A DNA stretch of 64,000 nucleotides from Diphasiastrum complanatum (lineage: Eukaryota > Streptophyta > Lycopodiopsida > Lycopodiales > Lycopodiaceae), in assembly GCA_029204225.1 (NCBI GenBank), contig CM055095.1:75998896-76062895 (forward strand), given 5' to 3'. The translations under genes and the position numbers were made by a program. Position 1 is the first letter of the stretch. Each line of letters opens with the position of its first letter. The notes below the pieces were generated by a model. It searched no databases. It saw only the letters and a program-made list of their open reading frames with translations, and had not been told where the DNA came from. This document shows positions 1-45,522 of the stretch, one piece after another.

Positions 1-404
1 TTATCAAAGGAGGAAAAGCAATGTGTTTTTCTTGCAATGCCGCTGTCAGAGCAATTCTGCAGCGATTATATTTTCATGAGAAAAGTAAGCGCGTATTAAT
101 TCCTGATCGTAACCTGTGCAGGGAGATGTTGATGGCAACAAAGGATTGAGCTTTGAAGCGATGTAATCGACTTCTCGGGTTACGGAAAATCTGCAACAAA
201 ATGCAAGAGGGAGCTGATACTATCAAAACCGCATCGAAAAAGAAGTGGGTTCTGAAGGAAATTCTCATTTGCTGCAGGGTTTGATCGCAGTATATTGATC
301 ATGATCACAGGAATGCTGCTAGGCAGAGAGGAGGCTTGGTTCAAGGAATAAGGCAAGTCAATTGTGTGTTTAGACTTACAGAGGAAGAAGAAGAAGAAGA
401 AGGA
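1..404 (+). promoter_or_regulatory. 5' flank / leader of BAC2-like gene, copy 1
   Basis: This is the upstream region of the carrier gene, cut by the window edge. It ends in a run of GAA triplets just before the chosen ATG. No ATG lies in frame upstream of position 405 after the preceding stop. Compared with copy 2 it lacks 71 bases around position 151, so the two copies differ in promoter or 5' UTR structure. No TATA box can be assigned with confidence. Confidence 0.45.
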
Positions 405-2930
405 ATGGAGTTCTGGCGGGATCATTTGACATTTTCTTTGGGAAAAGACTTTCTAGCAGGTGGATTGGGTGGCATAGCAGGGGTGATCGCTGGCCATCCT
501 CTGGACACCATTCGAATCCACTTGCAGCAGCCGCAGCGGCCCTCTGCTTCTGGGCCAACTACGGCTGGAGCGGTGGTACGCCATCTGCTAGCCACCGAAG
601 GGTCGTCTGCTTTCTTCAAAGGGATGTCCTCGCCTCTTGCCACTGTCGCTATTCAGGTTGATTCTTTATCAATCTTTCAAGTCTCAATTATCAAGCATCT
701 GCTTTTCCATCACTCAGTAAATCTACTCATTAATCAAGCTCCCTGTAGCAAACTGCAGCAACTTATGACATCGGTTGTGCCTTTTTTTGGGATTATATTT
801 ACATATTAGAACAGACTCAACAATGCGATCATAAATAATTCAAGCATGCTTCCCAGACTGAAGAATGCCATTTTTTTATCAATCCTTCTACGCAAAGGAG
901 AGAAGAAGCGTGAAGCTGTATATCCTGAAAGCTAGCTCTTATGATCAACAAGATGCTGGAAGCATGCTCATCATTTGGAAGATGCTGCAAGCATTGCATC
1001 CTATTCCAAACCTTTGCATGTACAGCTTGAAATAATAGTAAAAGAATAAACTCTAATCTTGTTTAAGATCCTCTAAGGATTGCCGATTCCTATCTAGTAT
1101 CCCTGTACAGGTCGATGAAAACTGCAAGCTTAAGATCTTCACCACTAGTTAATGGTCATTGTTGCTGTGCAGGAATCATCCAACTATTGTAGTTTGCTAA
1201 ATTGGATTGAGCCACTAATGTACTCGCAGCTACAAGGAACTCCCTCGTGTGGTATCAGGCTAAAAGTTCTATTCAGAGCATCAAACCCAAAGCTTGATCG
1301 AGCAATCAGAAGTTATGAACTCATGCCTCACCAGTTCAAGAACGTGAATATATTTAGTGTATCTGGTCATTGATGTCGAGCTTTTAGTATCACATTTTGG
1401 CCTTTAGAGGAAACCATTCTGCATCAGTAAGGGTTTGTATTGCGCTAAAACTTTGTTCATAACGATCGTGCTTGCTGCGGAAACACTTCCTTCAGTCAGT
1501 TATGATATCCTAGAGAACTTCCTACCCCACCTTATTAACCTCTGTAAATCACATAGTTTAGTTCTTTCTATGTATGGTGGACCACTTTCCGTTTTCGCGA
1601 GGATTGCTTACATTGTTGAGTAGAATGAAACTGTTGCAGCCATAAGCAAACACGTGGGTGTATCATGCGTGCTTGAGTTTGGCTCGGGCAACCAGGTTTG
1701 ATTCGTGGTGATCCCATAAATACCAAAAACCACTAGCAATCACGTGTCTTGTACTTTGATCTACTGTTCTGTACGCTTCAATCAGCTTCTGGGAGAAAGT
1801 AGCTACAAGGGAGAGCAAACAGTCCATTTTCCAGATGAAATTTAAGCTTTCAGGTTTTTACGTACATGAATTATAAGCTCGGTCAATACTGTTATCTCCC
1901 TCAGCTTTAAAAATAAGCATTCCAAAATAACCTGCTATTGGGAGCCTCTTGACCCTGTGAAATCTAGTAGCGAAATGCTAGTTTTGGTTGTTATGTTTTG
2001 ATTGCCTCATGATTGGAGGAAAATTGGCTGTTGACTAAAATTTTGTGTTTACAAGAGGATTTCCATAATATATAGTTGTATGCCAAAATGTGCGAATGTT
2101 TTCAGAGTTTTACTCTACATTTCTCCGCTTGAAGTAATATCTGTACCTGAAGTTTAATGAGCTTAATACCCGGAAGCAACTCTGGCTGACTGATCCTTTG
2201 ACCTGTTGGTTGTGCTGTATAGAATGCTGTAGCATTTCAGGCGTACGCTCTCTTATCTAGAGCTTTAGCTGTTGAAAAGAGTGAGCCTTTGCCTCTTCAC
2301 AGAGTTGCAGCTGCTGGAATAGGAGCAGGTTCCTTGCAGACACTAATATTGACACCAGTAGATCTTGTCAAAATTCGCTTGCAGCTACACACGGCTCACG
2401 GCGGCGGAAGATCTCGGCCCACCATCAATTTTGATGGTCCTTGTGATGTTGCACGAGACATCATCAAGAGGGAGGGTGTGCGAGGACTGTACAGAGGTTT
2501 CAGAGTGACTGTGCTGCGAGATGCTCCTAGCCATGGTGTCTACTTTGCTGCATATGAGTATATTCGAGAGTATTTGCATCCTGGTTGTCGAAAAAATGGG
2601 GGTGAAACTGTCATGACCATGCTTACAGCAGGTGGATGTGCTGGAGCATTAAGTTGGATAGCTTGTTATCCACTGGACGTTGTAAAATCTCGCCTTCAGG
2701 CACAGGGACAGGGACGTGACAGTCGCGGGAGATACAAAGGTATCACTGATTGCATCTCGAGGAGCATCCGAGAGGAGGGAGTTTCAGCGCTCTTTCGAGG
2801 ACTTGGAACTGCTATTGCAAGAGCTTATTTGGTGAATGGAGCTATTTTTTCTGCCTACGAGATGACTTTAAGATTATTCTATTCGCAACCATCTCAGGAA
2901 ACAATGCTTGAGAACCCCACCCCCATGTAG
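405..2930 (+). CDS. BAC2: Mitochondrial basic amino-acid carrier (BAC2-like), copy 1
   Basis: This is a mitochondrial carrier (SLC25 family) spliced as 405-656 and 2223-2930, giving 319 residues. The intron (657-2222) has GT and AG ends and is phase 0 after a CAG codon. The three carrier signatures are visible: HPLDTIRIH at residues 31-39, TPVDLVKIRLQ at 128-138 and YPLDVVKSRLQ at 233-243. This is the expected three-repeat, six-helix fold with no cleaved presequence. The closest family I recognise is plant BAC2, from features such as VLRDAPSHG, REYLHPGCRK and VNGAIFSAYE. Arabidopsis BAC2 moves arginine, ornithine, lysine and related amino acids across the inner mitochondrial membrane. The start at 405 was chosen because MEFW aligns with the BAC2 N-terminus and has a purine at -3 and G at +4. 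Copy 1 has Ala273 and Leu278, where copy 2 has Val at both. I see no disabling change. Substrate is inferred from family only. Confidence 0.9.
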
Positions 2931-4120
2931 CAACAGCATCTCCATAATCACTACTCCAAGGATTACTCATATCTACTTCATCATTATTCTCTTTGCATTT
3001 TCCATTAATTAGACCTGTTATTCACTATTTAGTTGGATCTCTCTAGTGATGGCTTAATGCAATTTGAACCAGAGCTGCTTTTCTATCCATGGATGCAAGA
3101 AATGCTTCAAATTCTATGAAAGTCAGATAAAGTGGATCATGACAAATTTGGAAGACATTATTATGGCAATTTATGGTTGTTGATGGTAGTTTTAGAACCT
3201 CAAGATCCATTCGAAATTAATATGGATAGCCATTACTTGGCCTGAGCATCTGTGCATATTAGGTACCCACTTTCAACTTGGTCAGCTACATCATTAAGAG
3301 AATATAAATATAATGGTTGGATTATCATTTGACAACTTTTCTTTTTTGGTTATATTGCATGGTACAAATATTATAATTACGGACTTTCTCATGAATTAGT
3401 CCCCAATTGCAATTTTTTGCTTTGCTTTTTACCCATCTCAGGTTTAGATCTTGCTCTTTGGATAAATTCATGTTCACCATCAATTCCACTCTTTCTGTAA
3501 ACTGCCGAATGTCTATAGTCTCTAGTCCTTGATTGCACTTATTCTTCTAAGCATATGTGTACTTGAAACATAACATCTCTTTATGATACAGAAAGCCAAG
3601 TGACTCTCATATTGACAGAACAAATAATATTGTTGCGATATTATCAAAAGCAAATTGTAGCTAATCTTCTTTGCATATGTCTTCTTATAATATTGTTTTT
3701 CTCCCCCACTACAAACATGGGCAAATTGTCAGACACATACGATGAGGCCCATCTTTGGCTTCTTGGTCCTGTGTGGCAATTTTTGTGGCAATCACATGGC
3801 AATGAGCACGTGGCTCTACCACGTGTGGTAGTGCCACACCACCAAAATTTTCTACGACGACGATGAAAAGGGGACGGGAGGGGGACATGGCACAACCACA
3901 CAATTATTTGAGAGAGAAAAAGCGAGTGGAATGGACATTGGCTTTTTCCCAACATTAGTACTAGTTTTATTATTTGTGATACCAAAAGAGAGAAGAGATA
4001 TGAGAAAATTGAAAGATCAGGTGACAAATAATTAGATTAGATTTTTAACTAGATTTCATTGATAGATTACATGAATGTTAGTTGGATGTTGAATAATTTG
4101 TTTTTGATTTATTGATTTGT
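2931..4120. other. 3' flank of BAC2-like copy 1 inside the arm
   Basis: No convincing gene. The first few hundred bases are the likely 3' UTR and polyadenylation region. Around 3765-3850 there is a cluster of GTGGCA/TGCCAC words and a near-palindrome CTACCACGTGTGGTAG, repeated in inverted form in the right arm. Open frames of about 90-127 codons at 3600-4027 have no recognisable domain and run on both strands, so I treat them as chance. Confidence 0.5.

Positions 4121-6534: not shown

Positions 6535-6605
<71 letters not shown>
6535..6605. repeat. (CT)n microsatellite
   Basis: An uninterrupted CT dinucleotide run of about 70 bases. Confidence 0.98.
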
Positions 6606-6608
<3 letters not shown>

Positions 6609-7071
6609 ATCGTGAATGTATGTGCTTAGAGTTAACAAAGGTAGTATTAAAAAAGTTAGTGTTAAGGTAGAGTTAGTAAGCACCTAAATTAGCAATTAAG
6701 TATAGTTAAGGCCCTATCTTTGTGTTCTAACACAGGCAGTGTGAAAAAATGGTCAAAATCTATTTTGGTTGTTTTATGTTTTTAGTTTGTGAGGAAAAGA
6801 TCACATGTGTGGAGCATGTTCCCACATGTAGAAAAAGTCAAAAATAGTTTATGATGTTAACTTTAGGGGTATCACAAAGTTTTATGTCAAGCATCTTTGT
6901 GTAGAGTTGTGACAGGGCCAAAAATTGGCATAGTTGGCAAATTGGTCAAATCCACATGTAATGCCACTATTGAGTCAAAAGTCATTTGTGATGCAAACTC
7001 AAGCTATGTAGGCTAGTAAACAGGATTGTGATACTTGTATTAATGTAGTTTGATGAGTGATGAAATCAAAG

Positions 7072-7566
7072 TGTTGGCTTTGGTCAAGGGGTACAATAGG
7101 AATTGAGAAATCTTGAAGAAAGGTCCAATAGAATTGTAGGATGGATGCATCACTCATCCAATAGCATTAGAGAGGCTAGGATTAGGGGTCCAATAGCATG
7201 CAAGGAGGATTCTCCCCAGGTTTATATGTACTCCACTTTGGAATCATAATTTAAGTTGAGTTTTTTAGTCAATCTTTGTATGGTGGGATTTGCTTGTTCA
7301 ATCTTCTCTCTCTACCCGAGTTGAATTAGCTCTATTCTCTCTCTACCTGAGGATAGGAGCTTAATTTTACTTAGTTTTATCAAAAAGCACTTCCTCTCAT
7401 GTGTATGTACTTTGGTCATCAACAAATACATCCATCTTTGCCTCTATGCCTTGTGTTTTTGATCTAGATCTTGGAAATCAATCTAGAATCCGTCTACAAG
7501 TGCACAAGCTTGCTTAGGAGATCAATCACACACTTTAGGGCATTCCCAAACGTGTGAATTTTCACA
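7072..7566 (+). repeat. 5' LTR of copia family A, left copy
   Basis: The segment begins TGTTGGCTTTGG and ends TTTTCACA immediately before a copia primer-binding site. It matches 38507-39002 along its whole length, while the bases upstream of the two copies are unrelated. This defines the 5' LTR edge. Length is about 495 bases. It contains a CTCTCTCT-rich leader-like stretch near 7300. No matching 3' LTR of family A was found in the window. Confidence 0.82.
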
Positions 7567-7578
7567 TGGTATCAGAGC
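7567..7578 (+). promoter_or_regulatory. Primer-binding site (initiator tRNA-Met type), family A
   Basis: The sequence TGGTATCAGAGC lies directly after the LTR. It is the standard plant copia primer-binding site complementary to initiator methionine tRNA. Confidence 0.93.
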
Positions 7579-8326
7579 CTACCTAGGTATTTGACGTTTG
7601 TTTCATCCAAAGTTCCAAAATTTTTCTTGAAAATCTAGATCTAGAGAGACTAGTTTGCTTCTCCCATGCTATCTTAAGCAAATTTGGATCAAGAGGGTCC
7701 ATTATCATATGGATTGGACCAAATATGGTACTATACAGATTTTCCTGCTCAGACACATGTGAAGGACAGCCCAATTCATTTTGGTGGTTCTCTTCCATGT
7801 GTGATCCAAAATTGATGCTTGATAGCTAGTTTTAAAGCTATTTGAGTTTAGTTTGTGTAGCAATTGACTTCATATTGATTGGATCTCTCAATTAAAAGTT
7901 ATAGTCAATTGAATCAAGGTGGGTAGGGCACCCAACCTGCTTGGACACTTTTTTCTTTTGACTCTATTATGCTTGTTTGATCAAAAATCTCACTTCTAGG
8001 CTTGCCAATCTTGTTTTCTTGAGATCTAGTTATCATTTTGAGGTCATTGCCACTTTCTTTCATACAATTGGATTGTATTTGAGCGATTTGTGGATTCTTG
8101 GAGTGTTTCCCACGTGCCAAAGATAGCTTGACCCAAACTTAGCCCATACTTCATCAGTTGATGTGAGATTGATCTAGATTAAGAGAGATTGGAAAAGCTA
8201 GTGAGGTCCATATCTCACTTTGTTGCACGATCTTGCATAGGAGTTGGTAGTACACCTTTAAAGGATCCTATAGTGAGAGAGAAGCAACATTTTAGTGTCT
8301 AAATCACAAGGAGTCTTCACTATTAT
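7579..8326 (+). mobile_element. Untranslated leader of family A, left copy
   Basis: About 750 bases between the primer-binding site and the gag start. It is conserved with 39015-39759 and, more weakly, with 63550-64000. No long open frame. Confidence 0.75.
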
Positions 8327-13900: not shown

Positions 13901-14220
13901 GGATAATTGGATCATTGTTATATCTTGCAGACAACACCAGACCTGATATAGCATTTGCAGTATATAGACAAAGCCAATTTAATCAGAATCCAAAATCGTT
14001 ACATTGGAAGTTGGCAAAGAGAGTAGTACAATATCTCCAGGAAACAAAAGACTATGGAATGTGTTATTCGAAGGAAGCTGGATTTCGGATCGAATCTTAC
14101 AGTGACGCAAGCTGGGCATCCATGAAGCATCAATGATAGCAAAAGTATTTCAGGAGGTTGTACTCTAGTATCTGGTGCAGCCATATTCCAGATAAACAAG
14201 AAGCAAATGTAGAACAACTG
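10932..14220 (+). pseudogene. Copia family B gag end and pol, left copy
   Basis: This is a decayed copia polyprotein read in pieces. The gag C-terminus with a zinc knuckle is at 10932-11186 (CNRCKGLGHT, the following Cys replaced by Arg). The protease region is at 11358-11783, where the catalytic DSG reads DSK in VLDSKATSHF. The GAG-pre-integrase and integrase HHCC region is at 11847-12137 (HKRLCHMN, then CESCLKGK), with integrase core remnants to about 12900. The reverse transcriptase is at 13047-13457 (KWIYKVKTGPDG, then DYTDTFSPV), its YVDD near 13590. Late RT/RNase H sequence is at 13861-14136 (RPDIAFAVY, then SYSDASWAS). Stops and frameshifts occur throughout, several of them shared with 41420-44922, so it cannot encode active enzymes. 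Confidence 0.9.
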
Positions 14221-14290
14221 ATCAAATAGATCTTGATTCTACCAACCAAACGTGCAGTTTACTTGAAAAAGGATGAGAAAGAAACAAACG

Positions 14291-15127
14291 TGAACTCAAA
14301 ACATTTCTATTCGTGACCAACTCAAAAAGATTCGCGAAGGATTCGCAAAATTTGTCTTGCAGTCAACTCCAAAGATTCGAGAAACAGTGTCTTGTGGAAG
14401 CTCATGGCTTTCTTGTTGAAGCTCAAAAGATTCGCGAACAGAATCTTGTCGCAAAAAAATTTTCTGTTTCTTGTTCAAAGCCTCAGATGTTGCAAAATTG
14501 TCGTGAAATCTTCTGGACTGTTCTTCGAACTCACCTGTCGCAAAACTATCTTGAACAGTTCGCGAAATATTATAGTTTCCTTCTTCAAGCTCAAGAATTG
14601 TCATCTATCGTGAACAATTCACGAATGACGAAAATGTTGCGAAGAGTCAAGTGTCGCGAACAATTCGCAAACACAAAACTAAAATGAAGAGACAGATTGT
14701 TGCAAAATATTCGCGAACAGAATTTATGCGAGCCTGGAAACAGAGTGTCTGTTTGAATATCAACCGTCGTAATGGTCAAATTTCTATTGTTACAGTATCA
14801 AAAGGCCAAAAGACCTCTCTTGTAGCAATATAAATACATATGAAATTAACTCAATCAGAGACACAATAGCAAGAGATGTATATTGATGAATCAAATTCAG
14901 AGTTATGAAAAAATTCGTTTTTGATTAATAATTTCTTATTGTCTAAATGGTCTTGAGTTGTCTCATACTTCCGCATATAATTTTTGCACGCATATTCATT
15001 CAGAATAAATATTGTTCTATTAGTACATAGATCAGATAAAATCGCGATTGAAGACACTGATATTGGTTTGATTTATTCGAACTCGCATCATGTTCTATGT
15101 GAAAGAATAACTGCTATTTTTCTTACA
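14291..15127 (+). repeat. LTR of copia family B, copy 2
   Basis: It follows the RNase H remnant and a purine-rich AAAAAGGATGAGAAAG, and ends TTCTTACA before a primer-binding site at 15129-15140. The U3 part is dense in TTCGCGAA-type words (14326-14720), and TATAAATA is at 14829-14836. A primer-binding site followed by gag immediately downstream means this LTR is both the 3' end of one B unit and the 5' end of the next. The start coordinate is approximate. Confidence 0.75.
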
Positions 15128-15128
15128 G

Positions 15129-15140
15129 TGGTATCAGAGC
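15129..15140 (+). promoter_or_regulatory. Primer-binding site, family B copy 2
   Basis: TGGTATCAGAGC directly follows the LTR. Confidence 0.92.
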
Positions 15141-15242
15141 ATACGGAATTAAAGTTGATACAGTGGTATCTTCATATCCCTCTTAACATTTTTCATACAT
15201 CCATCAGTAAGCCGCTATTTGGACCTTATTCAGAATTAAAAG

Positions 15243-15886
15243 ATGTCATAGATCACCAACATTCAAGCTAAGATCACTACTATCTTGGACCCAGAAGGTT
15301 CAAACTACTTGATTTGGAAATTAAAGACTTCACTCTTGTTGAAAGGCAAAGGTCTATGGCAATGGATAGAACCAATTGAGAAGAAGCCAGAAGCTACTCT
15401 TGGCAAAGAACTTCAAGAATGGAGTTTAAAAAATGACAAAGCTATAGCAATTATTGCATCTTCAATGCATGACAATATAATGCTAGATCTTACATCAATT
15501 TCAAACGCAAAGGATTTATGGGAAGGATTTATTTCAAACGCAAAGGATTTCAAATGAAAAATGAGACTCGATCTCGTAATCAGATCATGTTTTTGGAAGA
15601 CCAATTAACTTACCTACAGTGGGATGGCAAAGACCTGAACACATTCGTGCGAAAGATAAAAGATCTATTTATTTCCTTGCAGAATTTCAGTGCAAAGAAT
15701 ATAATTTCTAAGGAGAAACAGCTTAGTTATTTTCTTCATGCCCTACACAGGTCATTCCACACAACTCGAACCTTGTTGGTGAAAGATGCGACAATGACAC
15801 TTCAAAAGGAAATAGATGGAGTGAAGGAGGAAGTAGAAGCTCGTGAACGCTATGACGACAATGGTGATTCATAAAATGCTCTATTT
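15243..15886 (+). pseudogene. Copia family B gag, truncated
   Basis: The N-terminus matches the DUF4219/UBN2 gag type: GSNYLIWKLKTSLLLKGKG, then KELQEWSLKNDKAI, then MFLEDQLTYLQWDGKD. Codon 3 is a stop here (TAG), whereas the relative at 47292 has TCG. A 19-base word, TTTCAAACGCAAAGGATTT, is duplicated near 15499 and 15533 and brings a frameshift and stop. Homology to other B copies ends at about 15886, where unrelated sequence begins. This marks either an insertion point or a deletion breakpoint. Confidence 0.85.
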
Positions 15887-16335
15887 CTTTCCTTATCAAG
15901 GGTGTTGATTAGGAAGTGACTAATATCCTTAATAGATGATTGAATAGAGGATGATGCCATAGGAGGGTCAGCAACAGAAACTTCCTCATTATCTGGGATC
16001 TGAACTAACAAGAAAAGTACGAAACCACTCTGATATTCAACCACTCGACATTTCTTGTTGCAATAAAGACACATTGAACTGCTTTTGAAAAGATCAAACA
16101 ATTTGGTGAACATTCTATCTAGTCTATGTTTGAAAGATGGGAAGAAATGAACAAGATCAGTATAATTCATGTACAAGAGTGAGCCTATGGAGATAACAGA
16201 CTTACTAAGTATATCCCTGAATCTAACATAATGTTCATAAAATACGTCAGAATTTGGTTGTGCAGTTCTTAAAACATGTAAATATGGCCTGAATAGGCTG
16301 TGGAAGTAGTCTAGATTTTCAGTAATCCCAAATTT
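15850..16335 (-). CDS. Unidentified minus-strand reading frame
   Basis: An open frame of 161 codons with no stop from 16335 down to 15850; the first Met is at 16176. I do not recognise the protein. It has a hydrophobic, aromatic N-terminal half (words such as DVFYEHYVRFRDIL and LVHFFPSFKHRLDRM), a possible zinc-binding pair CLYCNKKC, and a polar C-terminal part. The last few dozen bases overlap the truncated B gag on the other strand. It could be an exon of a broken gene, since TAA in frame precedes it and no start is obvious. It lies next to the histone-like frame on the opposite strand, with the motif-rich region between them. Confidence 0.35.
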   Translation of the reverse strand, partial: KFGITENLDYFHSLFRPYLHVLRTAQPNSDVFYEHYVRFRDILSKSVISIGSLLYMNYTDLVHFFPSFKHRLDRMFTKLFDLFKSSSMCLYCNKKCRVVEYQSGFVLFLLVQIPDNEEVSVADPPMASSSIQSSIKDISHFLINTLDKERNRAFYESPLSS

Positions 16336-16379
16336 TTAAAAAAATAAACTCAGGCCTGAATCTCATGTAGATCCTGAGG

Positions 16380-17215
16380 AAGAGGCAATGGAACTACGAC
16401 AGATATCGCACTTGTACACGAGGGAGAACAAACAAAACAAAACTAACTCTAACGATCGCACACAAGAGGGATATATATGGCAGGTAGCAACTGAATATCG
16501 CACTTGTGCGCAAGTAGGTATCATTGCAAAAAATGGAAAACAAGGCATGCGCACAAGAGCGATATGTTGTGAATTTCGAGAAAGAAAAAAATAAAAAATT
16601 AATCAGGTTTTGTGCCTTTTATACATTTTCACACCTGTGGTCAACGGTCAATGGACACGTGTTTACTTCCAATTGGACTGCAAGCACTGGCATGTGTGAG
16701 GTGACACTTGGACACGTGTGAAATGACACCAATACACGTGTCTCGTGTTCATTCGTCGGTTCAACAACACATGTCGCTCTCGCATTTGGCCGTACAAATC
16801 CCACACATGTAAAATGACAACCTGACATGTGTCGCTCTCGCATTTGGCCATACAAATCCCACACATGCGACAGGACATTCTTGCGCACGTGTGAACCGTG
16901 ATATAAAATCACAAACTTCGATGAATTTTTTTCTCTTTTTTTTGGGGTCTGCATATCGTACTTGTGCGCCTCCTTCACAATCGATATTCTGCCTACTGCC
17001 TTCCATGCGCACAAGTCCGATATTTTTGCCTACATGTCTCCTTATATCGGACTTTTCATCTCTCTTCTATACTAATCGATCTCTCTGATATTTGGCTCGC
17101 ACAGGTCCGATATACCGTACATTCTTTCCGTACATATCGGTCCTCTACGAGGGCTTCATAATCCTTCCTTGCTTATCCTAGTCGTCATGCACACGTGTGA
17201 TATCCCCTAGTACAC
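16380..17215. promoter_or_regulatory. Motif-dense, promoter-like region (CACGTG and GCACTTGTGCGC words)
   Basis: This region has two word families. One is ACACGTGT or CACGTG-like (16650-16900, again at 17190). The other is ATATCGCACTTGTGCGC-like, in both orientations, near 16400, 16495, 16545, 16950, 17008 and 17100. A 58-base period repeat with TGTCGCTCTCGCATTTGGCC lies at 16769-16867. CACGTG is the G-box/E-box core in plants. The region sits between the minus-strand frame and the histone-like frame, so it could be a shared promoter, but transposon origin is equally possible. Confidence 0.4.
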
Positions 17216-17219
17216 TTCC

Positions 17220-17618
17220 ATGGATAGGAGAAAGCAGACAAGGAGGGATTTCTTCTCTGCTGGCTCGTTTTTAGCTCCTGTAGTTGCCATTACACCTCCC
17301 GCTAGATCTAGAAGGCGCAACCGCAGCAGGTGGCTCTCTAAAATACGTAAGTATCAGAGATCAGCCACTCTATTGATTCCCAGAGCTCCATTCTACCGTG
17401 CCGTCCGAAATATAACTAGAAATGATCTTGGACAGCTTGTTAGATTCACACCCACATCTCTCTAGTGCCTTCAAGAAGCTGTTGAAGACTATATGAGTCT
17501 TTCTTTTGAAGATTTATTTGTGCTTGCTATTTATTCCAAGAGAGTCACCATAATGCCTAAGGACTTTCAGCTACTAAAGATAATGAGGGAGAGGTTTTGC
17601 AAGTTACATGTATCTTAG
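17220..17618 (+). pseudogene. Histone H3-fold protein (CENH3-like features), single exon, one internal stop
   Basis: The 133-codon frame aligns over its length with histone H3. The start MDRRKQTRR resembles the H3 tail around Lys4. The alpha-N segment is KIRKYQ (41-46), helix 1 is LLIPRAPFYRAVRNIT (51-66), helix 2 is LQEAVEDYM (84-92) with FED (96-98), and the C-terminal part is [16 protein letters not shown] (103-118). LLIPxAPF and RxIT are the plant CENH3 form; canonical H3 has LLIRKLPF. Loop 1 has the canonical H3 length rather than the longer CENH3 one. The tail lacks the usual K9/K14/K27 context. Codon 82 is TAG (17463-17465), where H3 has Ala. The absence of introns suggests a retrocopy, since plant CENH3 genes have several. 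Function would be nucleosome assembly if intact; as read it is probably a pseudogene. Family assignment is confident, subtype is not. Confidence 0.75.
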
Positions 17619-18025
17619 CCTGCTGCTCCCATACTTGTTCCTCTAGATAGGACTGATCTTCCGAAAAATGTAAGGAGGGTAGATACCACCAAATCTGTGA
17701 AGCCTAACCCGGAACCAATTGTAGATGATGCTACTCTAGATAATGTTGTAAATATAGCTACATTGATTTTGGATACCCTTGTACAAAGCCGATGTTGTAG
17801 ATAGAATTGGTACTCCTTTTTGTTTTAGACTAGAGGAACTTGACTTAAGTATAAATTATAGAGTTGTTGATTGTTTGGATCTCAAAAATAGACGGGCTTT
17901 TATCAGTGATCTTGTGATAGAGTCTGGGCTTACACTCTTGCAATATGACATCGCAAGAGATTCTTCCAATGAGTTGTTGGTGCTGAGTAACTTTTTGCTT
18001 CAGGCCTTTAAGGAGAATAACGACA
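17619..18025 (+). pseudogene. C-terminal extension of the H3-like frame, then an unidentified domain (copy 1)
   Basis: After the H3-like TAG at 17616-17618 the same frame stays open for about 60 codons to 17801, with a Pro/Asp-rich start and a hydrophobic helix-like word NVVNIATLILDTLV. From 17787 a different frame encodes a domain beginning DVVDRIGTPFCFRLEELD and continuing through CLDLKNRRA and LVIESGLTLLQYDIARDS. The nucleotide segment 17787-18025 has a same-length partner at 45004-45242. I counted 11 mismatches in 239 bases and no gaps. I do not recognise the domain. Whether it was once fused to the H3-like part, or joined by rearrangement at 17787, cannot be told here. Confidence 0.5.
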
Positions 18026-18029
18026 TGGT

Positions 18030-20757
18030 TGACTCCATAGATGTTTTCTTGTCGTCAACCTGGTTCTTGTTACCAAATTCGTGTTCAGATTTGTCACTCG
18101 AATCGTCAGACTCTTTCGAGTTTGTGTCTACAATGTTAATTTCTTCATACAAAACATCAGCTTCATCATTGCAGGCATCGAAGAATTTTTCATCATCAGC
18201 ATTCTCATAACGTTCAAAGTACTGCACTTCAATATCAGATTTATAGAAAAAAATATTCAAGGCATACAAAGATTCTTTAGATGTAAAACTGGTGTCGGAC
18301 AAAGGAGTTTCACCTTCATATTTGTCACGACTCCAGATTATGATTTGTTCTGCTGGCTTACCTTGATTATTGGTCTCACCAGTTTGAAATCTTAGCTCTC
18401 TGGATAAAGCCAAGGTCGTCCAATCAGCACAGAATAGGATGATAAACCGAGTGGTTTGATAACAATAAAATTCGTGGTGAATGGCTTGGCTTGAATGTAG
18501 ACGGTGACATCCTTCAGCTCACCAACAGGTTTTCATCATGTTGAATCAGCTAACTTGATGTTTCGTTGTGTTGGTTGAATGTCAGTCAGCCCCAGAGCAT
18601 GAGCTGTGTCTTCTGTTATTATATTTACACTAGAACCAGAGTCAATTGGCACATTTTTGATTAGGCATCATGCAATAGCAACATCAATTTCAGGTGCACC
18701 GAGATCACCTAAATCAATGGACAAAACACCAACATCTGGTAGAAAATTTTTCTTCTTCTTCTTCGTAGGCACATAAAGGCCTTTCAACTGCTTTCTGTAA
18801 TAAGTGTTATCTACCAACAGCTGTTCAAAAGTAATGTTTGGTCGAAGAGATCCGATATCAGTTACGATGTCATATTCTTTTGTCTTTGATTTTGAGGTTG
18901 GTTTATCAATAACAGCACTAGACAATTTCGTCTTCGCAATTTCTTCGTCTTCTTCCTTGAAAGCGACCACCTTCTCTGCAGGAACAGTCTTTAGTTCAGC
19001 GTCGATGATCTCCTTTGCTTCTGCTGAGATATCTTTTGCAAATAACTTCGCAGCATCACGGTCATAGTCAGGGTCATCCTTGAGATATTCTTTAGTTGTG
19101 GATTTGTTCGTCATCTTGCTAGAAGATTTTGTCTTCGCGGATTTTCTGTGCTTTGTCGAAGATTTCTGATCAGGTTTCGAGGAGCTTTTGCTTCTCGTGG
19201 TGACTTCAAAAATATTTTTCACGTCAGTCGGCCAGGATTGATCTTTAGTCATTGCCAATTTTTCTTCAATAACGTCAATTCTCTATACAATAGCATCTGT
19301 CACAGCTTTCGCTTTTGTGTCTGCGGCAGCTGGTGTTGCTACATACTGATATTTGGGCCGCGGATTCTGCGGATGAGGGCAGTCAGGATACTTGTGACCA
19401 GGTTCTCTACATTTTGAACATAATGGTACGAAACCAATTGGCTTCTGTGGTTGAGGACAGTCAGGAGAAAAATGTCCCGGCTCTCCACAGTTGTAGCAGT
19501 TGCCCGAAACTAGTTTATTCAAGGTTTGAGACTTCGCTGGTCCAACAAATTTAGGAGGATTATGTCTTCTTGGTGCGAATTTGGGTCTATCTTGCTGGGC
19601 TGATGCTGTAGTACCCGTACATAGTTAGTAGTCGCATCATTCTAAAAAATAAAAAGTACCTCCTAGGCAGGATCTTTAATGTATTTCACATTAACGAAAG
19701 TGCAGTCTTCCTTGGTGTGTCCAGATGTTCCACATTTTATACACCACATTCCTGAGTTAGAAGAAGATACCTTTGGTCTTTTATCTACAACTTTTGAGAT
19801 CTGCAATTTCAAGTCATTAAATTTTTTATTAAGGTCAGCCATATTACTTTTCCAAAGCTTTTCCACTTTGGAAGTTGATGACTTATCCTCGACAACTTTC
19901 GTGTCGTTCTTTCATTTAGTTCGTCGTTTATTCTTTTTCTCTCCTTTGTCAGCATCTGATTCTGATGAATTGCTACTTTCAGATTCCAAGCTTGAAGAAC
20001 TACTACTGGAATCTGAATCTGAATCATCATCGTTGTCATTGGAATTAGTCTTAGACTTTCGAGATTTCTTCGTTGATCGCCGCTTTCGTGCTAATTTCGA
20101 AGTCTCAAAATTTTCTACACTAGCTATAACAATTGCTAAGGATTTCATGTCCCCTTGTCTGCAGTATCGATCAATCTTTGGTGGTAGACCAGCCAAAAAC
20201 CATTCGATTTGCATATCCACGGGATATACACCGGTTAGTTTTCCTATTAGGTTTTTAACCTTACGTGTATATTTGCGAAGAGATTCTTTACTCTTCTTCT
20301 GAACATCGTTCAGTCGTCCAAGAATTCTAGATTTGTAACCTATCTCTCTGAACTGGTTCAGAAATGCATCTTTCAACAGGTACTAGGTTCCTACACGGCT
20401 TGGTTCTACCTAACTATACCAGATACGCACCTGCTTTCTTAGCAGACCAGGAAAAATTTGTAGTTTGTCTACGTCAGTTCCCTAATATTCGCATTGGCTA
20501 TTGACTCAAATTGTGAGACATAGCTATCTGCATCATCGGAGCTAGTCCCTTTAAAATAATCATATTTAATTTTAGAGATAGAAGTGAAGCGTGTAGTAGG
20601 GCCCTCCATACAGAAGCTAATTAGGAGTTCAAGTAACTGAGCAGTGATTTTGTCTAGATTTCTATGACTAATACTTTCACTCTGTCTTCGTAAAAACTCC
20701 TCTCTAAGCTTCCGATATCTTTCTAATCTCGATTCTCTATCTGACATACATTAGAGA
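18030..20757 (-). pseudogene. Ty3/gypsy gag and protease, decayed
   Basis: Read from right to left. A charged N-terminus lies at 20747-20469. The retrotransposon gag core is at 20376-19912 (AFLNQFREIGYKSRIL, then SLRKYTRKVKNLIGKL), with a Ser/Asp-rich tail. Zinc knuckles follow at about 19745 (CIKCGTSGHTKEDC) and at 19498-19380 (CYNCGEPGHFSPDC and CSKCREPGHKYPDC). A Lys/Ser-rich linker is at 19258-18668. An aspartic protease remnant is near 18650-18420 (VPIDSGSSVNIIT, then SVLIGRPWL), with two adjacent stops. The frame then continues as a linker to 18000. Reverse transcriptase and integrase are missing, because the element ends at the junction with the unidentified domain near 18030. Three zinc knuckles in two clusters is more than the usual one or two. 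Confidence 0.88.
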
Positions 20758-27918: not shown

Positions 27919-30900
27919 ACAAATCAATAAATCAAAAACAAATTATTCAACATACAACTAACATTCATGTAATCTATCAATGAAATCTAGTTAAAAATCT
28001 AATCTAATTATTTGTCACCTGATCTTTCAATTTTCTCATATCTCTTCTCTCTTTTGGTATCACAAATAATAAAACTAGTACTAATGTTGGGAAAAAGCCA
28101 ATGTCCATTCCACTCGCTTTTTCTCTCTCAAATAATTTTGTGTGGTTGTGCCATGTCCCCCTCCCGTCCCCTTTTCATCGTCGTCGTAGAAAATTTTGGT
28201 GGTGTGGCACTACCACACGTGGTAGAGCCACGTGCTCATTGCCATGTGATTGCCACAAAAATTGCCACACAGGACCAAGAAGCCAAAGATGGGCCTCATC
28301 GTATGTGTCTGGCAATTTGCCCATGTTTGTAGTGGGGGAGAAAAACAATATTATAAGAAGACATATGCAAAGAAGATTAGCTCCAATTTGCTTTTGATAA
28401 TATAGCAACAATATTATTTGTTCTGTCAATATGAAAGTCACTTGGCTTTTTGTATCATAAAGAGATGTTATGTTTCAAGTACACATATGCTTAGAAGAAT
28501 AAGTGCAATCAAGGACTAGAGACTATAGACATTCGGCAGTTCACAGAAAGAGTGGAATTGATGGTGAACATGAATTTATCCAAAGAGCAAGATCTAAACC
28601 TGAGATGGGTAAAAAGCAAAGCAAAAAATTGCAATTGGGGACTAATTCATGAGAAAGTCCGTAATTATAATATTTGTACGATGCCAATATAACCAAAAAA
28701 CAAAAGTTGTCAAATGATAATCCAACCATTATATTTATTTTCTCTTAATGATGTAGCTGACCAAGTTGAAAGTGGGTACCTAATATGCACAGATGCTCAG
28801 GCCAAGTAATGGCTATCCATATTAATTTCGAATGGATCTTGAGGTTCTAAAACTACCATCAACAACCATAAATTGCCATAATAATGTCTTCCAAATTTGT
28901 CATGATCCACTTTATCTGACTTTCATAGAATTTGAAGCATTTCTTGCATCCATGGATAGAAAAGCAGCTCTGGTTCAAATTGAATTAAGCCATCACTAGA
29001 GAGATCCAACTAAATAGTGAATAACAGGCCTAATTAATGGAAAATGCAAAGAGAATAATGATGAAGTAGATATGAGTAATCCTTGGAGTAGTGATTATGG
29101 AGATGTTGTTGCTACATGGGGGTGGGGTTCTCAAGCATTGTTTCCTGAGATGGTTGCGAATAGAATAATCTTAAAGTCATCTCGTAGGCAGAAAAAATAG
29201 CTCCATTCACCAAATAAGCTCTTGCAATAGCAGTTCCAACTCCTCGAAAGAGCACTGAAACTCCCTCCTCTCGGATGCTCCTCGAGATGCAATCAGTGAT
29301 ACCTTTGTATCTCCCGCGACTGTCACGTCCCTGTCCCTGTGCCTGAAGGCGAGATTTTACAACGTCCAGTGGATAACAAGCTATCCAACTTAATGCTCCA
29401 GCACATCCACCTGCTGTGAGCATGGTCATGACAGTTTCACCCCCATTTTTTCGACAACCAGGATGCAAATACTCTCGAATATACTCATATGCAGCAAAGT
29501 AGACACCATGGCTAGGAGCATCTCGCAGCACAGTCACTCTGAAACCTCTGTACAGTCCTCTCACACCCTCCCTCTTGATGATGTCTCGTGCAACATCACA
29601 AGGACCATCAAAATTGATGGTGGGCCGAGATCTTCCGCCGCCGTGAGCCGTGTGTAGCTGCAAGCGAATTTTGACAAGATCTACTGGTGTCAATATTAGT
29701 GTCTGCAAGGAACCTGCTCCTATTCCAGCAGCTGCAACTCTGTGAAGAGGCAAAGGCTCACTCTTTTCAACAGCTAAAGCTCTAGATAAGAGAGCGTACG
29801 CCTGAAATGCTACAGCATTCTATACAGCACAACCAACAGGTCAAAGGATCAGTCAGCCAGAGTTGCTTCCGGGTATTAAGCTCATTAAACTTCAGGTACA
29901 GATATTACTTCAAGCGGAGAAATGTAGAGTAAAACTCTGAAAACATTCGCACATTTTGGCATACAACTATATATTATGGAAATCCTCTTGTAAACACAAA
30001 CTTTTAGTCAACAGCCAATCTTCCTCCAATCATGAGGCAATCAAAACATAACAACCAAAACTAGCATTTCGCTACTAGATTTCACAGGGTCAAGAGGCTC
30101 CCAATAGCAGGTTATTTTGGAATGCTTATTTTTAAAGCTGAGGGAGATAACAGTATTGACCGAGCTTATAATTCATGTACGTAAAAACCTGAAAGCTTAA
30201 ATTTCATCTGGAAAATGGACTGTTTGCTCTCCCTTGTAGCTACTTTCTCCCAGAAGCTGATTGAAGCGTACAGAACAGTAGATCAAAGTACAAGACACGT
30301 GATTGCTAGTGGTTTTTGGTATTTATGGGATCACCACGAATCAAACCTGGTTGCCCGAGCCAAACTCAAGCACGCATGATACACCCACGTGTTTGCTTAT
30401 GGCTGCAACAGTTTCATTCTACTCAACAATGTAGCAATCCTCGCGAAAACGGAAAGTGGTCCACCATACATAGAAAGAACTAAACTATGTGATTTACAGA
30501 GGTTAATAAGGTGGGGTAGGAAGTTCTCTAGGATATCATAACTGACTGAAGGAAGTGTTTCCGCAGCAAGCACGATCGTTATGAACAAAGTTTTAGCGCA
30601 ATACAAACCCTTACTGATGCAGAATGGTTTCCTCTAAAGGCCAAAATGTGATACTAAGAGCTCGACATCAATGACCAGATACACTAAATATATTCACGTT
30701 CTTGAACTGGTGAGGCATGAGTTCATAACTTCTGATTGCTCGATCAAGCTTTGGGTTTGATGCTCTGAGTAGAACTTTTAGCCTGATACCACACGAGGGA
30801 GATCCTTGTAGCTGCGAATACATTAGTGGCTCAATCCAATTTAGCAAACTACAATAGTTGGATGATTCCTGCACAGCAACAATGACCATTAACTAGTGGT

Positions 30901-32112
30901 GAAGATCTTAAGCTTGCAGTTTTCATCGACCTGTACAGGGATACTAGATAGGAATCGGCAATCCTTAGAGGATCTTAAACAAGATTAGAGTTTATTCTTT
31001 TACTATTATTTCAAGCTGTACATGCAAAGGTTGGAATAGGATGCAATGCTTGCAGCATCTTCCAAATGATGAGCATGCTTCCAGCTTCTTGTTGATCATA
31101 AGAGCTAGCTTTCAGGATATACAGCTTCACGCTTCTTCTCTCCTTTGCGTAGAAGGATTGATGAAAAAAATGGCATTCTTCAGTCTGGGAAGCATGCTTG
31201 AATTATTTATGATCGCATTGTTGAGTCTGTTCTAATATGTAAATATAATCCCAAAAAAAGGCACAACCGATGTCATAAGTTGCTGCAGTTTGCTACAGGG
31301 AGCTTGATTAATGAGTAGATTTACTGAGTGATGGAAATGCAGATGCTTGATAATTGAGACTTGAAAGATTGATAAAGAATCAACCTGAATAGCGACAGTG
31401 GCAAGAGGCGAGGACATCCCTTTGAAGAAAGCAGACGACCCTTCGGTGGCTAGCAGATGGCGTACCACCGCTCCAGCCGTAGTTGGCCCAGAAGCAGAGG
31501 GCCGCTGCGGCTGCTGCAAGTGGATTCGAATGGTGTCCAGAGGATGGCCAGCGATCACCCCTGCTATGCCACCCAATCCACCTGCTAGAAAGTCTTTTCC
31601 CAAAGAAAATGTCAAATGATCCCGCCAGAACTCCATTCCTTCTTCTTCTTCTTCTTCCTCTGTAAGTCTAAACACACAATTGACTTGCCTTATTCCTTGA
31701 ACCAAGCCTCCTCTCTGCCTAGCAGCATTCCTGTGATCATGATCAATATACTGCGATCAAACCCTGCAGCAAATGAGAATTTCCTTCAGAACCCACTTCT
31801 TTTTCGATGCGGTTTTGATAGTATCAGCTCCCTCTTGCATTTTGTTGCAGATTTTCCGTAACCCGAGAAGTCGATTACATCGCTTCAAACTATTAGTCAA
31901 GATGAACTTCCAAAACACATGGGATGCAGAAAAAGGGTACACCGTAGAGCACCTGGCGCAGCTCAATCCTTTGTTGCCATCAACATCTCCCTGCACAGGT
32001 CACGATCAGGAATTAATACGCGCTTACTTTTCTCATGAAAATATAATCGCTGCAGAATTGCTCTGACAGCGGCATTGCAAGAAAAACACATTGCTTTTCC
32101 TCCTTTTGATAA
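27919..32112. repeat. Right arm of large inverted duplication
   Basis: Reverse complement of 1-4120. It may extend past 32112, but the left partner lies outside the window. It contains a 71-base segment near 31890-31960 that is absent from the left arm. Confidence 0.93.
29112..31636 (-). CDS. BAC2: Mitochondrial basic amino-acid carrier (BAC2-like), copy 2
   Basis: Spliced on the minus strand as 31636-31385 and 29819-29112, giving 319 residues. The intron is 29820-31384, one base shorter than in copy 1, and keeps GT and AG ends. Retention of the intron shows that this is a DNA-level duplicate, not a retrocopy. The three carrier signatures (PLDTIRIH, PVDLVKIR, PLDVVKSR) are intact. Exon 1 encodes the same protein as copy 1; exon 2 differs at residues 273 (Val here, Ala in copy 1) and 278 (Val here, Leu in copy 1). 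Both lie in the matrix-side part of the third repeat. From memory of Arabidopsis BAC2, Val is expected at 273 and Leu at 278, so each copy has one unusual residue. Role as for copy 1: exchange of arginine, ornithine and lysine across the inner mitochondrial membrane, inferred from family. Confidence 0.9.
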
Positions 32113-33483: not shown

Positions 33484-33787
33484 CACAATAACATATCACA
33501 GGAGTTCCGACGTGGGCGTTCGATGGATTTTTGGAAATTTTATAATTTATCGCATTTTGACGGCATCGGATTCCGACACCCAAGTAAAAATTCCCAAATT
33601 GGGCATTTGATGATCGGGAAATTGTGGCTCCAACCAATTTTCAAACTTGTCGTCAGATTCCGACATTCCAACGTGGATATGGCATGGAATATTGTCTACC
33701 AAAAAAAAATAGTTGGCATCCAACGTGGATGTCAGATTCCGACATTCGCATTTTGACGTCCACGTCATTGATGTGTGTATGTGTATA
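33484..33787. repeat. Short interspersed GATTCCGACATTC-type repeats
   Basis: Words such as ATTCCGACA, CCAACGTGGAT and GACGTCCACGT recur in this 300-base stretch. No coding potential. It abuts the AG/TG array. Confidence 0.4.
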
Positions 33788-33875
33788 TGTTTTGCATTTT
33801 GCATTGATTTAGAATTTAGGGTAATAGATAAGTAGATAGTGTTTGATAGTAATTGAATGTTAGATTTGTAATTGG

Positions 33876-33949
<74 letters not shown>

Positions 33950-34042
33950 GTGTGTGTGTGTTTTGCATTTTGCATTGATTTAGGATTTAGGGTGATAGAT
34001 GAATAGATAGTGTTTGATAGTAATTGAATGTTAGATTTGTAA

Positions 34043-34136
<94 letters not shown>

Positions 34137-34314
34137 GCATTTTGCATTGATTTAGAATATAGGGTGATAGATGAATGGATAGTGTATGATGAAAATTGAA
34201 TGTTAAATTTGTAATTTGTTAGAGAGAGAAAAAATTAAATGCATATTGTATGATGATTTGCATAGAAAGTTAAATATGCAATTTGTTTAAACAAAGCTAA
34301 AATAGACTGAAAGA

Positions 34315-34400
<86 letters not shown>

Positions 34401-34579
34401 GATTGTTGTAATCTTATAGAAATTATTACATTTGTGAAAATAAAATACAAATTAGATGATGAGAGAGAGAGAGAGAGGATGTGATGTGAGTGTGTGTGTG
34501 TTTTACATTTTGTATTGACTTAGGAATTAGGGTAGTAGATGATAAATAGTGTTTGATGGTAATTGAATGTTAGATTTGT

Positions 34580-34652
<73 letters not shown>

Positions 34653-34790
34653 GAGTGTTTTGCATTTTGCATTGATTTAGAATTTAGGGTAATAATAGAA
34701 TGAGAATGAGAGAAGTAGATTAGTATAACACAATAGAAATTATTAGAGAGAGAGAGTGTGTGTGTGTGTTTTGCATTTTGGCATGTGTGT
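33788..34790 (+). repeat. Higher-order array: about 90-bp unit alternating with (AG)n and (TG)n
   Basis: Five units begin TTTTGCATTTTGCATTGATT (starts near 33788, 33960, 34133, 34500 and 34658). Each continues through TTTAGGGT, GATAGTGT and TTGAATGTTA, and most end in a long AG run (33879-33942, 34047-34106, 34319-34397, 34584-34649). TG runs precede or follow some units. The unit is thus a compound minisatellite with microsatellite linkers. Confidence 0.93.
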
Positions 34791-41419: not shown

Positions 41420-44400
41420 AATGGAGTTTAAGAATGACAAAGCTATAGCAATTATTGTGTCTTTAGTGCATGACAATATAATGCTAGATCTTACATCAAT
41501 TTCAAACGCAAAAGATGGGAACCAATAATGAGACTCGATCTCGTAATCAAATCATGTTCATGGAAGACCAATTAACTTACCTACAATGAGATGGCAAAGA
41601 CCTGACCACATTCGTACGAAAGATAAAAGATATGTTTATCTCTTTGCATAATTCTGGCGTAGAAAATGCAATCTCAAAGGAAAAATAGCTTAGCTATTTT
41701 CTTCGAGTCCTACCCAGGTCATTCCACACAACTCAAACTTTATTGGCAAAAGATTCGACAATGACACTTCAAAAGGCAATAGATGGAGTCAAAGAGGAAG
41801 TAAAAGCTTATGAATGCTATGACGTAATGGTGATTTCAAAAATGCTCTATTTACTCAGAAGAATAAATTTTCAAAGAAGTCTAAGTTTAAGAGGGAGTCT
41901 TCTAAAAAGAATGGAAATGAATCCAAGACAAATGATCAACAATTTGAAAAACAACAGAAAAATTCTAGTGATAGGAAGATTTGCAACAGATGCAAAAGAT
42001 CGGGTCATACAGAAGATAAGTGTTGGTTAAATCCAAAGTGAATGCATTCATTATCATAAATGGGATCATGCAGCAGTAGATTGTTATCAGAATCCCAGAA
42101 ATAAGAAGGAGCATAATCGAAGCGAACCTTCATATTCAAACTATGTCGAAGACAAAGCAGAATGCTCCAGAGCATCAAAAGACAGGACGACAAAAAATTC
42201 AGCAACGTATGTTTGTGCTGATCAATGTTGTTCATCAAATTCAAAGATTCGAGAAGTGGTACTTGATTCAAAAGCCACCTCACATTTTTTTTCCTCGAAA
42301 CAAATATTTTCTGAGTTCAAGAAGATGAATTATTCGAGATTCATTATACCTGGAGATGGTTCTAAGCACGTAGTTGATGGAACTAGTGCACTATGGCTAG
42401 ACACGAATCAGAGTGACAAGAAACTGGAAGAAGTTCTCTATGTCCCTACTCTTGATAAAGATATTCTATTCGTAGCAAAGATAGTCGAACAAGCATGACA
42501 GTAACCTTCGCAAAGGACTCTTGTAAATTGTTTGATGAAGATTCTAATAACCTAGTTGCTAAAAGCAACAGAGAAAAAAATTTGTATCACTTGAACATTC
42601 GAACTCGAATCAAACAAGTGAATCATACTCAAGAATTGACAGATATTCTGTGGCACAAGAGGCTATGTCACGTGAACATGGAAGCCTTGTACCAAGCCAG
42701 CAAAAGTCAGAGAATCGAAGGAGTCGAAATCAAAAGTCGAGGTATTCGAACTACCTGCGAATCCTGTCTTAAAGACAAAATGACTAGAACACCTTTCAGT
42801 AAGGATGTTTATAAAGCAACCAAGGTACTGGAAATTGTGCATTTGGATATTTGTGGACCATTCGGAGTATTGTCTTTAGGTGATGCAAAATACTTCATTA
42901 TGTTTATTGATGACTTCAGCAAGTTCGTTGTGGTATACTTTATTCGTACAATCTGAAGCTTTTGAAAAATTTGTTGAGTATACGAATTGGGCTAAGAAGC
43001 AAATAGGCAATAAGTTAAAGCAAATTCGCATAGATTGTGGAGGTGAGTACATTTCCAAAGAATTCAAAGCTTATTGTACTGATCGAGGTATTATGCATAT
43101 GAAGACTGCATATCATACACACCTCAGCACAATGGAATAGCTATACGAAGGAATTGTACACTTATGGAAGCTGCTAGGTGTATGATGGCTCATGCAAAAG
43201 CACCAAAACAATTGTGGGCGGAAGCAGTGGCTACATCAAATTATCTTCAGAATCGAATTCTAAAATCTCGAATACCGGATAAAACTCCTTATGAGATATG
43301 GTGGAAATCGAACCAAATCTTGCACATGTTCGGACATTCGGATGCGTAGTTTATATGCACTGTACCAAACAAATTGAGAAAAAAAAACTTGATGAAAAGA
43401 CAGAACAAGGTTTTCTAGTAGGATTCGAGTTACATTCATCATATTATCGAGTCTACATACTCGAAACTGGCAGAATAAAAGTTGTTTGAGATGTCAAATT
43501 CGGTGAGTCAAAATACATAGCAGACAGTGATTTAGTCGACTATGATATTCTCAAAAATTATTATGAGCTACCAACGATAGAAGTAAAACAATCAGAAGAT
43601 GAACGAGAATTACCAGATTCAGAGGGATTTCAAGATCAAGTACCTGACAGACTCGAGTCACCAGTTTGATTTCCAACAAAAAAGGTCAAACCCGAAACTG
43701 CAGAATCGAACTCAAAACCACCTGTGAGAAGATCTGATAGACAACAAAAACCACCAGTAAGATTTGTTCAGGATGTTTTAACGAATGTAGCCATCAAATT
43801 TTGTGGTTTCTCAGACAAATCTCAAACATTCGAGGAAGCTATTGATGGACCAGATAAAGATCACTGGATTCAAGCAATGGAGGACGAAATCTCATCCATG
43901 TATAAGAACAATGTATGGACACTTGCACCTATACCTGATGGAAGAAAACCAGTCAAATCCAAGTGGATCTACAAGATCAAAACAGGTCCTAATGGAGAGA
44001 ACATCAGATACAAAGCAAGGTTGGTTGCAAAAGGTTTTCCACAAAAGTATGGGATCGACTACACTGATACTTTCTCACCGGTAGTCAAACACACATCAAT
44101 TTGCTTGTTATTCGCTTATGCAGTGGCTCATGATCTGAAAATCCATATTGTGGATGAGAAAACTGCTTTCTTGCACGCAGAATTAGAAGAAGACTTATTC
44201 ATGGACCAGCCACTTGGTTTTGTAACCCAAGATTATCCAACATTCGGATGTCACGTGAATAAAAGCATTTATGATCTGAAACAAGCAGCCAGACAATGGT
44301 ATAGAAAGAAGGACGAAGCACTGCGTTTTTTTCAAACCTCTTTTCACTGAATTGAATGTCTATATAAAGCATGTCCAAAATGAAATAATCATTCTAGTTG

Positions 44401-45316: not shown

Positions 45317-45522
45317 GATATATTAAATGCTTCTTGATGTTTAATGTTTTATCATTGGCATTATCAATGGAAATAGTTCTCAAAATTGCAGCTAAAGAAA
45401 TTTCAATCTTATTTTGCAACAATTGCTAAAATGAATTTTCGCAATTTTTGCCCAAAAAGTCTAGCAAAAAATATCAGCCAAACAAATTGCAGAAACAAAT
45501 TGTGAACATAAATCCGCAAAAG

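Follow-up and report, generated by a model that had tools for sequence, protein, structure and literature searches.

A histone H3-fold frame of Diphasiastrum complanatum lies within a decayed, repeated element that resembles a DNA transposon

The stretch of Diphasiastrum complanatum DNA analysed here (64,000 nucleotides, referred to as the window) contains an intronless frame resembling histone H3 and broken by a single TAG codon. Such a locus raises the question of how a histone gene came to lie among mobile sequences and whether it had any role there. The original prediction offered two explanations, namely that a CENH3 or a divergent H3 had been retrocopied or that an H3 had been captured in a mobile element. 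The 133-codon frame at positions 17220–17618 of the plus strand, with its only internal TAG at codon 82, was borne out when coordinates and stop were re-read, and both sequence words quoted for it (LLIPRAPFYRAVRNIT and a second one of 12 residues) were present in the translation. The search of the frame against the Pfam Histone profile gave E = 2.3e-22, far beyond chance, and the comparison with the H3 chains of solved nucleosomes gave E of about 2e-18; one of the related copies described below (L034) matched the Pfam profile with E = 2.2e-25. The assignment to the histone H3 fold was based on the matched core histone profile, the H3 landmarks found in order, and the retention of H113 and D123. 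Helices were predicted at residues 28–49, 55–68, 79–105 and 113–131, in the same order as in H3, the structure model of the frame itself being weak (pLDDT 56). Three details of the prediction had to be corrected. The match to H3 does not run from the tail to the C-terminus, as the N-terminal tail resembles that of H3 only in RKQT (by eye) and the GTVAL stretch, located before the first helix in H3, is missing. Loop 1 is not of H3 length, being one residue longer than in H3 and one residue shorter than in Arabidopsis CENH3 in the alignment. Finally, codon 133 does not mark the true end, since it is likewise a degraded CAG and the reading frame continues in the relatives.

To identify the relatives, the sequence 17220–17780 was used as a query against the window's own genome (1,744,706,496 bases in 5176 contigs). 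Scoring was carried out for 40 of the 1419 candidates raised by a first look, and each of the 40 proved to be a match at 81–100% identity; the true copy number is thus at least 40. Most of these matches covered bases 1–557 or more of the 561 query bases, and they were scattered over many contigs and positions. Twenty loci (L001–L020, L001 being the window itself) were taken and the window region 14001–20500 was compared with them using BLAST. Among the 18 loci remaining after leaving out L001 and L002, with near-duplicate pairs still among them, the match began exactly at 15887 in 10 and stopped exactly at 18025 in 16, defining a common unit of 15887–18025. The features of the window that belong to this unit or adjoin it are listed below.

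15531–15886, plus strand: right edge of a Copia block, interrupting the element on the left; 85% identical to 41499–41852, with the element match stopping at 15887
15887–18025: piece of the element carrying the H3 frame, cut on the left by Copia and on the right by a gag-protease retroelement
15887–16394, minus strand: 5' portion of ORF B, the divergent gene, which is read from the spacer towards the left and has two stops near its start
16395–17219, no strand: spacer between the two divergent genes, with copies of a 17-nt motif and a tandem pair, common to other copies
17220–17618, plus strand: H3-fold frame, with the N-terminal tail in codons 1–35 and the H3 core in codons 36–128, broken by TAG at codon 82
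17463–17465, plus strand: TAG at the place of H3 Met90 (codon 82), mostly CAG in the relatives; a C-to-T change at a CHG site
17619–17782, plus strand: continuation of the frame into a Lys/Arg-rich tail, from which about 90 bp have been deleted at 17783 in the window copy
17783–18025, plus strand: C-terminal domain of the histone protein (GTPFCFRLEELD...NELLVLSNFLLQAFK), ending the element piece in the window
18026–20750, minus strand: retroelement encoding a gag with zinc knuckles and an aspartic protease, judged Ty3-like by reading, interrupting the element on the right
44974–45419, plus strand: another fragment belonging to this element family, located within the second Copia block, 84–95% identical to other copies

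Since the matches stop at the Copia and gag-protease junctions, both retroelements interrupt another element. The description of the frame as lying among retroelements therefore applied to its neighbours, Copia-type up to 15886 and gag-protease from 18026, and not to the H3 frame, which is part of the different element interrupted by both. The two Copia blocks of the window contained, elsewhere within the blocks, a copia-type gag (1.8e-26) and RVT_2 (5.1e-41). The retroelement on the right was recognised by its protease (3.6e-5) and zinc knuckle (3.4e-11), with the gag (9.9e-5) just below the cut-off. The segments 17783–18025 and 45000–45242 were at first read as a separate repeat; this reading was rejected, as they belong to the same element as the H3 frame.

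Several duplications were observed in and around the window. Locus L002 (C4:75812320-75815879) is a duplication outside the window, 98.8% identical to 15723–19280, reversed, on the same contig at a distance of about 0.2 Mb and including the right junction. Five pairs of element copies were 99–100% identical over the ORF (L004/L021, L007/L010, L008/L013, L015/L025 and L020/L027), representing either recent duplications or unpurged assembly haplotypes. A mitochondrial carrier gene (Mito_carr, 8.6e-52) was present twice, in 1–4120 and 27919–32112, as a 99% identical inverted repeat with copies about 24–30 kb apart, which reflects either a recent inverted duplication or an error of the assembly. 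At 33547–34750, repeated blocks contained long (CT)n/(CA)n runs.

The anatomy of the complete element was deduced from sixteen 10-kb stretches (L021–L036) and six shorter left extensions. Measured from the histone start, the shared sequence extended more than 4.5 kb to the left and about 3.75 kb to the right. The right end coincided within a few bases in six loci (L024, L025, L029, L031, L032 and L036), and roughly the final 36 bases of this end recurred inverted at the left ends with about 88–89% identity. The left ends read CATTAGAGGAGTTC in the 6 loci with flank, and the right ends read GAACTCCTCTAATG in 4 loci, with one base changed in one more copy and the last bases absent in L029. In locus L031, a left end and a right end flank the H3 frame on either side. 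Dispersed copies with common inverted ends, a pattern expected of a TIR transposon, were thus found. A target-site duplication was observed in neither of the two copies with both ends seen (L031 and L041+L032), both of which may be composite. Read from left to right, the element comprises a transposase-like gene (plus strand, in pieces), a second gene on the minus strand, about 0.8 kb of spacer, the histone gene (plus strand) and, again on the minus strand, one or two frames. Truncations or internal deletions and insertions affect many of the copies.

Only the histone passed the cut-off in the Pfam scan of ten element frames. For the transposase-like piece, 36 homologues were identified and 16 of them aligned, revealing the largely conserved motifs DLKTLKC, PCLYC and HICTLH..RIxEK. 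These motifs are read as those of a putative DDE transposase. No convincing Pfam match was obtained for the 16 homologues scanned, and no hAT family was detected in them or in the ten element frames; precomputed Pfam domains existed for one of the 36 homologues only, a calmodulin chimera. The predicted structure of the transposase-like protein was poor (pLDDT 53). One homologue of the piece is annotated in D. complanatum (84% identity over 24% of the piece). The protein P0041 (O6H91_19G041100) of D. complanatum reads as calmodulin and ends in sequence of the transposase family, being either a chimeric gene or a gene-model error. The divergent gene, ORF B, retained in the window an open run of 149 codons (16332–15886), cut at the Copia junction; a run of such length occurred in 2.2% of 1000 simulated sequences. 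In copy L026, ORF B was a 406-codon open frame, and no Pfam family was found for it in the Pfam scan. The right-hand frames, seen in L029 at 6594–8169 on the minus strand (EWKPAQSLVGILDVIHSDVGKLQYRG... and MARRPRSTIESVILYNEKDEVDNWKP...), showed no significant Pfam or PHROG family.

The spacer between the histone and ORF B contained a regular array of the 17-nt motif GCGCACAAGTCCGATAT. Six sites with at most 3 mismatches were found in the whole window, all within 16403–17113, against 0.04 expected by chance. At up to 5 mismatches, a looseness at which the count has no chance control, ten sites were present in 16336–17219 in strictly alternating orientation, with steps of 55, 37, 54, 404, 54, 37, 53, 37 and 53 bases. 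The alternating array at 16403–17203 showed a period of about 91 nt, and the tandem pair in the spacer consisted of 53-nt copies 58 nt apart. Because the spacer sits between two divergent genes, it would presumably serve as a two-way promoter and as a binding array for a protein of the element.

The decay of the histone gene was followed in 36 loci, reduced to 30 rows after removal of 6 that repeated a place already represented. Codon 82 was CAG in 19 rows, TAG in 7 (L001, L002, L023, L024, L030, L031 and L033), CAA in 2 and CGG in 2. Codon 133 was CAG in 24 rows, CAA in 3 and GAG in 1, the 2 TAG codons occurring only in the window locus and its own duplicate L002. A reassigned TAG codon was considered and rejected, as CAG stands at the same codons in the relatives and the main decay is C-to-T at CG and CHG sites. 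In unbroken copies, the H3 frame is followed by a Lys/Arg- and Pro-rich stretch and a further domain, giving at least 309 codons, counted up to the cut in the reference copy. The deletion at 17783 in the window copy measured 88–97 bp between the matched pieces in the copies examined. No Pfam family was found in Pfam scans for the C-terminal domain (17783–18025). A ubiquitin-like nature of this domain was considered and dropped, since two-domain ubiquitin chains scored about 13 bits with E of 0.7 or worse and low E-values came from longer polyubiquitin chains only.

To evaluate past selection, 7 near-duplicates (>96.5% identical) were removed from the 30 rows, leaving 23 copies, and the silent fraction expected was calculated from the substitution spectrum with CG, CHG and CHH contexts, as measured on the C-terminal part. 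Among H3-core variants present in at least two copies, 31 of 61 were silent versus 0.274 expected (p = 8.9e-5, with 4 further variants that were stops left out), a value to be read with the reservation that shared variants can partly be recurrent and that p-values are uncorrected for the number of regions tried. The excess persisted for variants in at least three copies (20/35, p = 2e-4) and for shared variants after exclusion of CG/CHG deaminations (21/34, p = 4.8e-6). No such excess was seen in singletons (24/104, p = 0.87), and all H3-core variants pooled gave 55 silent of 165 (p = 0.054). Sham frames gave p = 0.13 and 0.78, or 0.40 and 0.98 without CG/CHG deaminations. Within the histone gene, the excess was confined to the H3 core, as shared variants of the N-terminal tail (6/22 silent, p = 0.58) and of the C-terminus (p = 0.31) did not show it. 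ORF B displayed a weak excess in 13 copies (38/104, p = 0.009; 18/43, p = 0.011 without CG/CHG deaminations). In one transposase exon 3 of 21 were silent, below the 0.27 expected; for the transposase and the right-hand ORF D, the number of shared variants was too small to test for selection. The silent excess in shared but not in singleton core variants indicates that the core was conserved while the copies multiplied and drifted after insertion. Decay after copying was neutral with strong C-to-T change at CG and CHG sites. Judged from these substitution patterns, the H3 core was quite probably under selection in the past.

Of the residues compared in the 23 distinct copies, F67, F84, K115 and D123 were kept in all 23, H113, R116 and L126 in 21 and R83 in 20, with R69 (17) and R72 (16) less kept and R63 lost. 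Most copies thus preserve H113, R116, D123 and L126, which we take to be H3–H3 contacts. In the tail, lysine stood at the place of K4 in 21 copies, while the place of K9 was occupied by D in 19, N in 2, Y in 1 and K in 1, and a K27 block was not recognisable by eye.

Taken together, we lean towards the view that the frame represents a decayed piece of a repeated element, probably a TIR DNA transposon, in which an H3-fold gene beside a transposase-like gene would have had an anti-silencing role; the identity of the element is the part held with high confidence. The capture of an H3 in a mobile element, one of the two explanations originally offered, is supported in the form of an H3-fold gene in a multi-copy unit with inverted ends and companion genes. 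Transposons are silenced by their hosts mainly via marks on the H3 tail and DNA methylation. Mobilisation by cut and paste would fall to the transposase-like protein, and an active element would have made the H3-like protein, which may have paired with host H4 and entered nucleosomes. With the K4 context kept, D at position 9 and no K27 block, the chromatin of the element would be devoid of the residues that receive plant silencing marks, so that such nucleosomes would refuse the usual H3K9 and H3K27 marks and keep the element transcribable. Each copy was likely methylated after insertion and then decayed, and the copy in the window was cut by the Copia and the gag-protease element. The anti-silencing step, which draws on the tail residues and on established knowledge of H3 marks, is put forward tentatively, and the lack of a silent excess in the tails weakens it. 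About as tentative is the wider proposal of an uncatalogued lineage of plant DNA transposons with its own replacement H3, whose core would be conserved, K4 kept and the K9 and K27 sites lost, and which the host could not silence by histone methylation.

Other explanations were weighed against this reading. The histone could be a passive passenger, i.e., a host gene captured by transduplication and multiplied with a DNA transposon without any role in its life. Such passengers are documented in the fungus Pseudocercospora fijiensis (PMC6710886), and in the present family most copies are broken (16 of 23 with a stop in codons 1–128 and 7 without), codon positions are flat in the other ORFs of the element and the pooled core variants are of borderline significance. 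This is nevertheless considered unlikely, as a passive passenger does not account for the silent excess in shared H3-core variants and its absence in singletons, or for a frame and histone motifs still common to the copies despite about 50% protein divergence from H3. A retrocopy of CENH3 or H3, suggested by an intronless H3 frame with one stop, is the least probable of all and is refuted for this locus: a processed retrocopy is an insertion limited to the mRNA, with poly(A), whereas the frame lies in a dispersed multi-copy unit with companion genes and inverted ends that is shared well past the frame on both sides. The gene may, however, have originally entered the element through a retrocopy event. 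The possibility that the element is an H3-encoding endogenous large DNA virus, or something virus-like, would agree with the presence of several genes and of a motif array flanked by a divergent pair; single H3s are also known from viruses (PMC9145170). The short inverted ends and the transposase-like gene argue against a virus, and neither relatives among viral contigs (viral_contigs) of the histone, the divergent ORF, the C-terminal domain and the transposase-like protein nor any virion or polymerase family in the frames scanned (ten, and eight) were found, making it very improbable.

A further alternative is a captured CENH3, with the histone targeting or mimicking centromeric chromatin and thereby marking the element or steering its insertion. 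The CENH3-like words noted at the outset are real, as the P in LLIPxAP, VRxIT, FT..AL, EDY and KDF are as in plant CENH3; they lie in helices 1, 2 and 3 and in the segment following loop 1. The link to CENH3 drawn from them was not established. Identity to plant H3.1 was 0.53 for L034, 0.55 for L003 and 0.49 for the window copy, compared with 0.48, 0.52 and 0.44, respectively, to Arabidopsis CENH3. The five relatives of the frame in the protein database (P0001–P0005) read as generic H3s. Foldseek with the model of the frame gave nothing significant, the best and weak match being the CENP-A nucleosome (6mup, E = 0.06), which would agree with such an origin. In a tree of 16 rows, the six element rows stood on one 0.78 branch, whose attachment among the H3, CENP-A and CENH3 rows was not resolved. 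Loop 1 of plant CENH3 is two residues longer than that of H3, whereas in the element it is one residue longer, and the 40 scored matches were spread over many contigs and positions. A centromeric role is therefore regarded as improbable. Because several residues are common to the element histone and plant CENH3, a CENH3 origin of the gene is possible on the grounds of sequence resemblance.

If the preferred reading of an H3-fold gene in a transposon-like element is true, an H3 supplied by the element and selected in its core during spread would offer a direct molecular test of parasites fighting silencing at the nucleosome, and transposon-borne H3 would extend from fungi to plants. The analysis also exposes a repeated element whose transposase-like protein is covered by no Pfam family. 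In practical terms, copies of the element can overwhelm counts of histone genes and searches for CENH3 in genomes of this kind.

No plant transposon with a histone was found in the freely accessible literature searched, and the word 'histone' is absent from the main text of a 2026 review of how plant transposons capture genes. The closest counterpart is the hAT element of Pyrenophora tritici-repentis carrying H3L, about 5.6 kb long, with a hAT transposase and several almost identical copies (PMC3538342). Both are DNA elements with inverted ends, a transposase gene, another ORF, an H3-like gene and several copies, and an H3-like gene between inverted ends was also found here, in L031. Unlike the fungal hAT, the present element resides in a plant, is roughly 9 kb long as judged from separate copies, has no hAT domain found in it and encodes a protein whose H3 core has diverged from H3 by about 50% and is joined to a basic tail and an extra C-terminal domain. 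In Pseudocercospora fijiensis and its relatives, 471 elements with H3-like sequence were reported, 9.5–9.9 kb at full length, with 20-bp ends, an 8-bp target duplication and copies that are inactivated passengers (PMC6710886). Many copies, transition-type decay and long elements are common to both, whereas here the H3 core is conserved on shared variants and a target duplication was seen in 0 of the 2 copies checked. Single viral H3 histones, 73–87% identical to the H3 of a possible host and thought to work with host histones (PMC9145170), likewise represent an H3-like gene in a genomic parasite, but no related viral contig was found for the element here. Anti-silencing proteins of other transposons, VANC of Arabidopsis Vandal elements and the TET/JBP genes of fungal DNA transposons, act on DNA methylation (PMC13317346, PMC12730594). 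The likeness, namely a transposase accompanied by an accessory gene with a presumed action on silencing marks, is an analogy only, and in contrast to them the histone would act at the nucleosome rather than on DNA methylation. Whereas H3-carrying hATs are known from fungi, the present element has a plant host and a transposase-like protein outside Pfam families.
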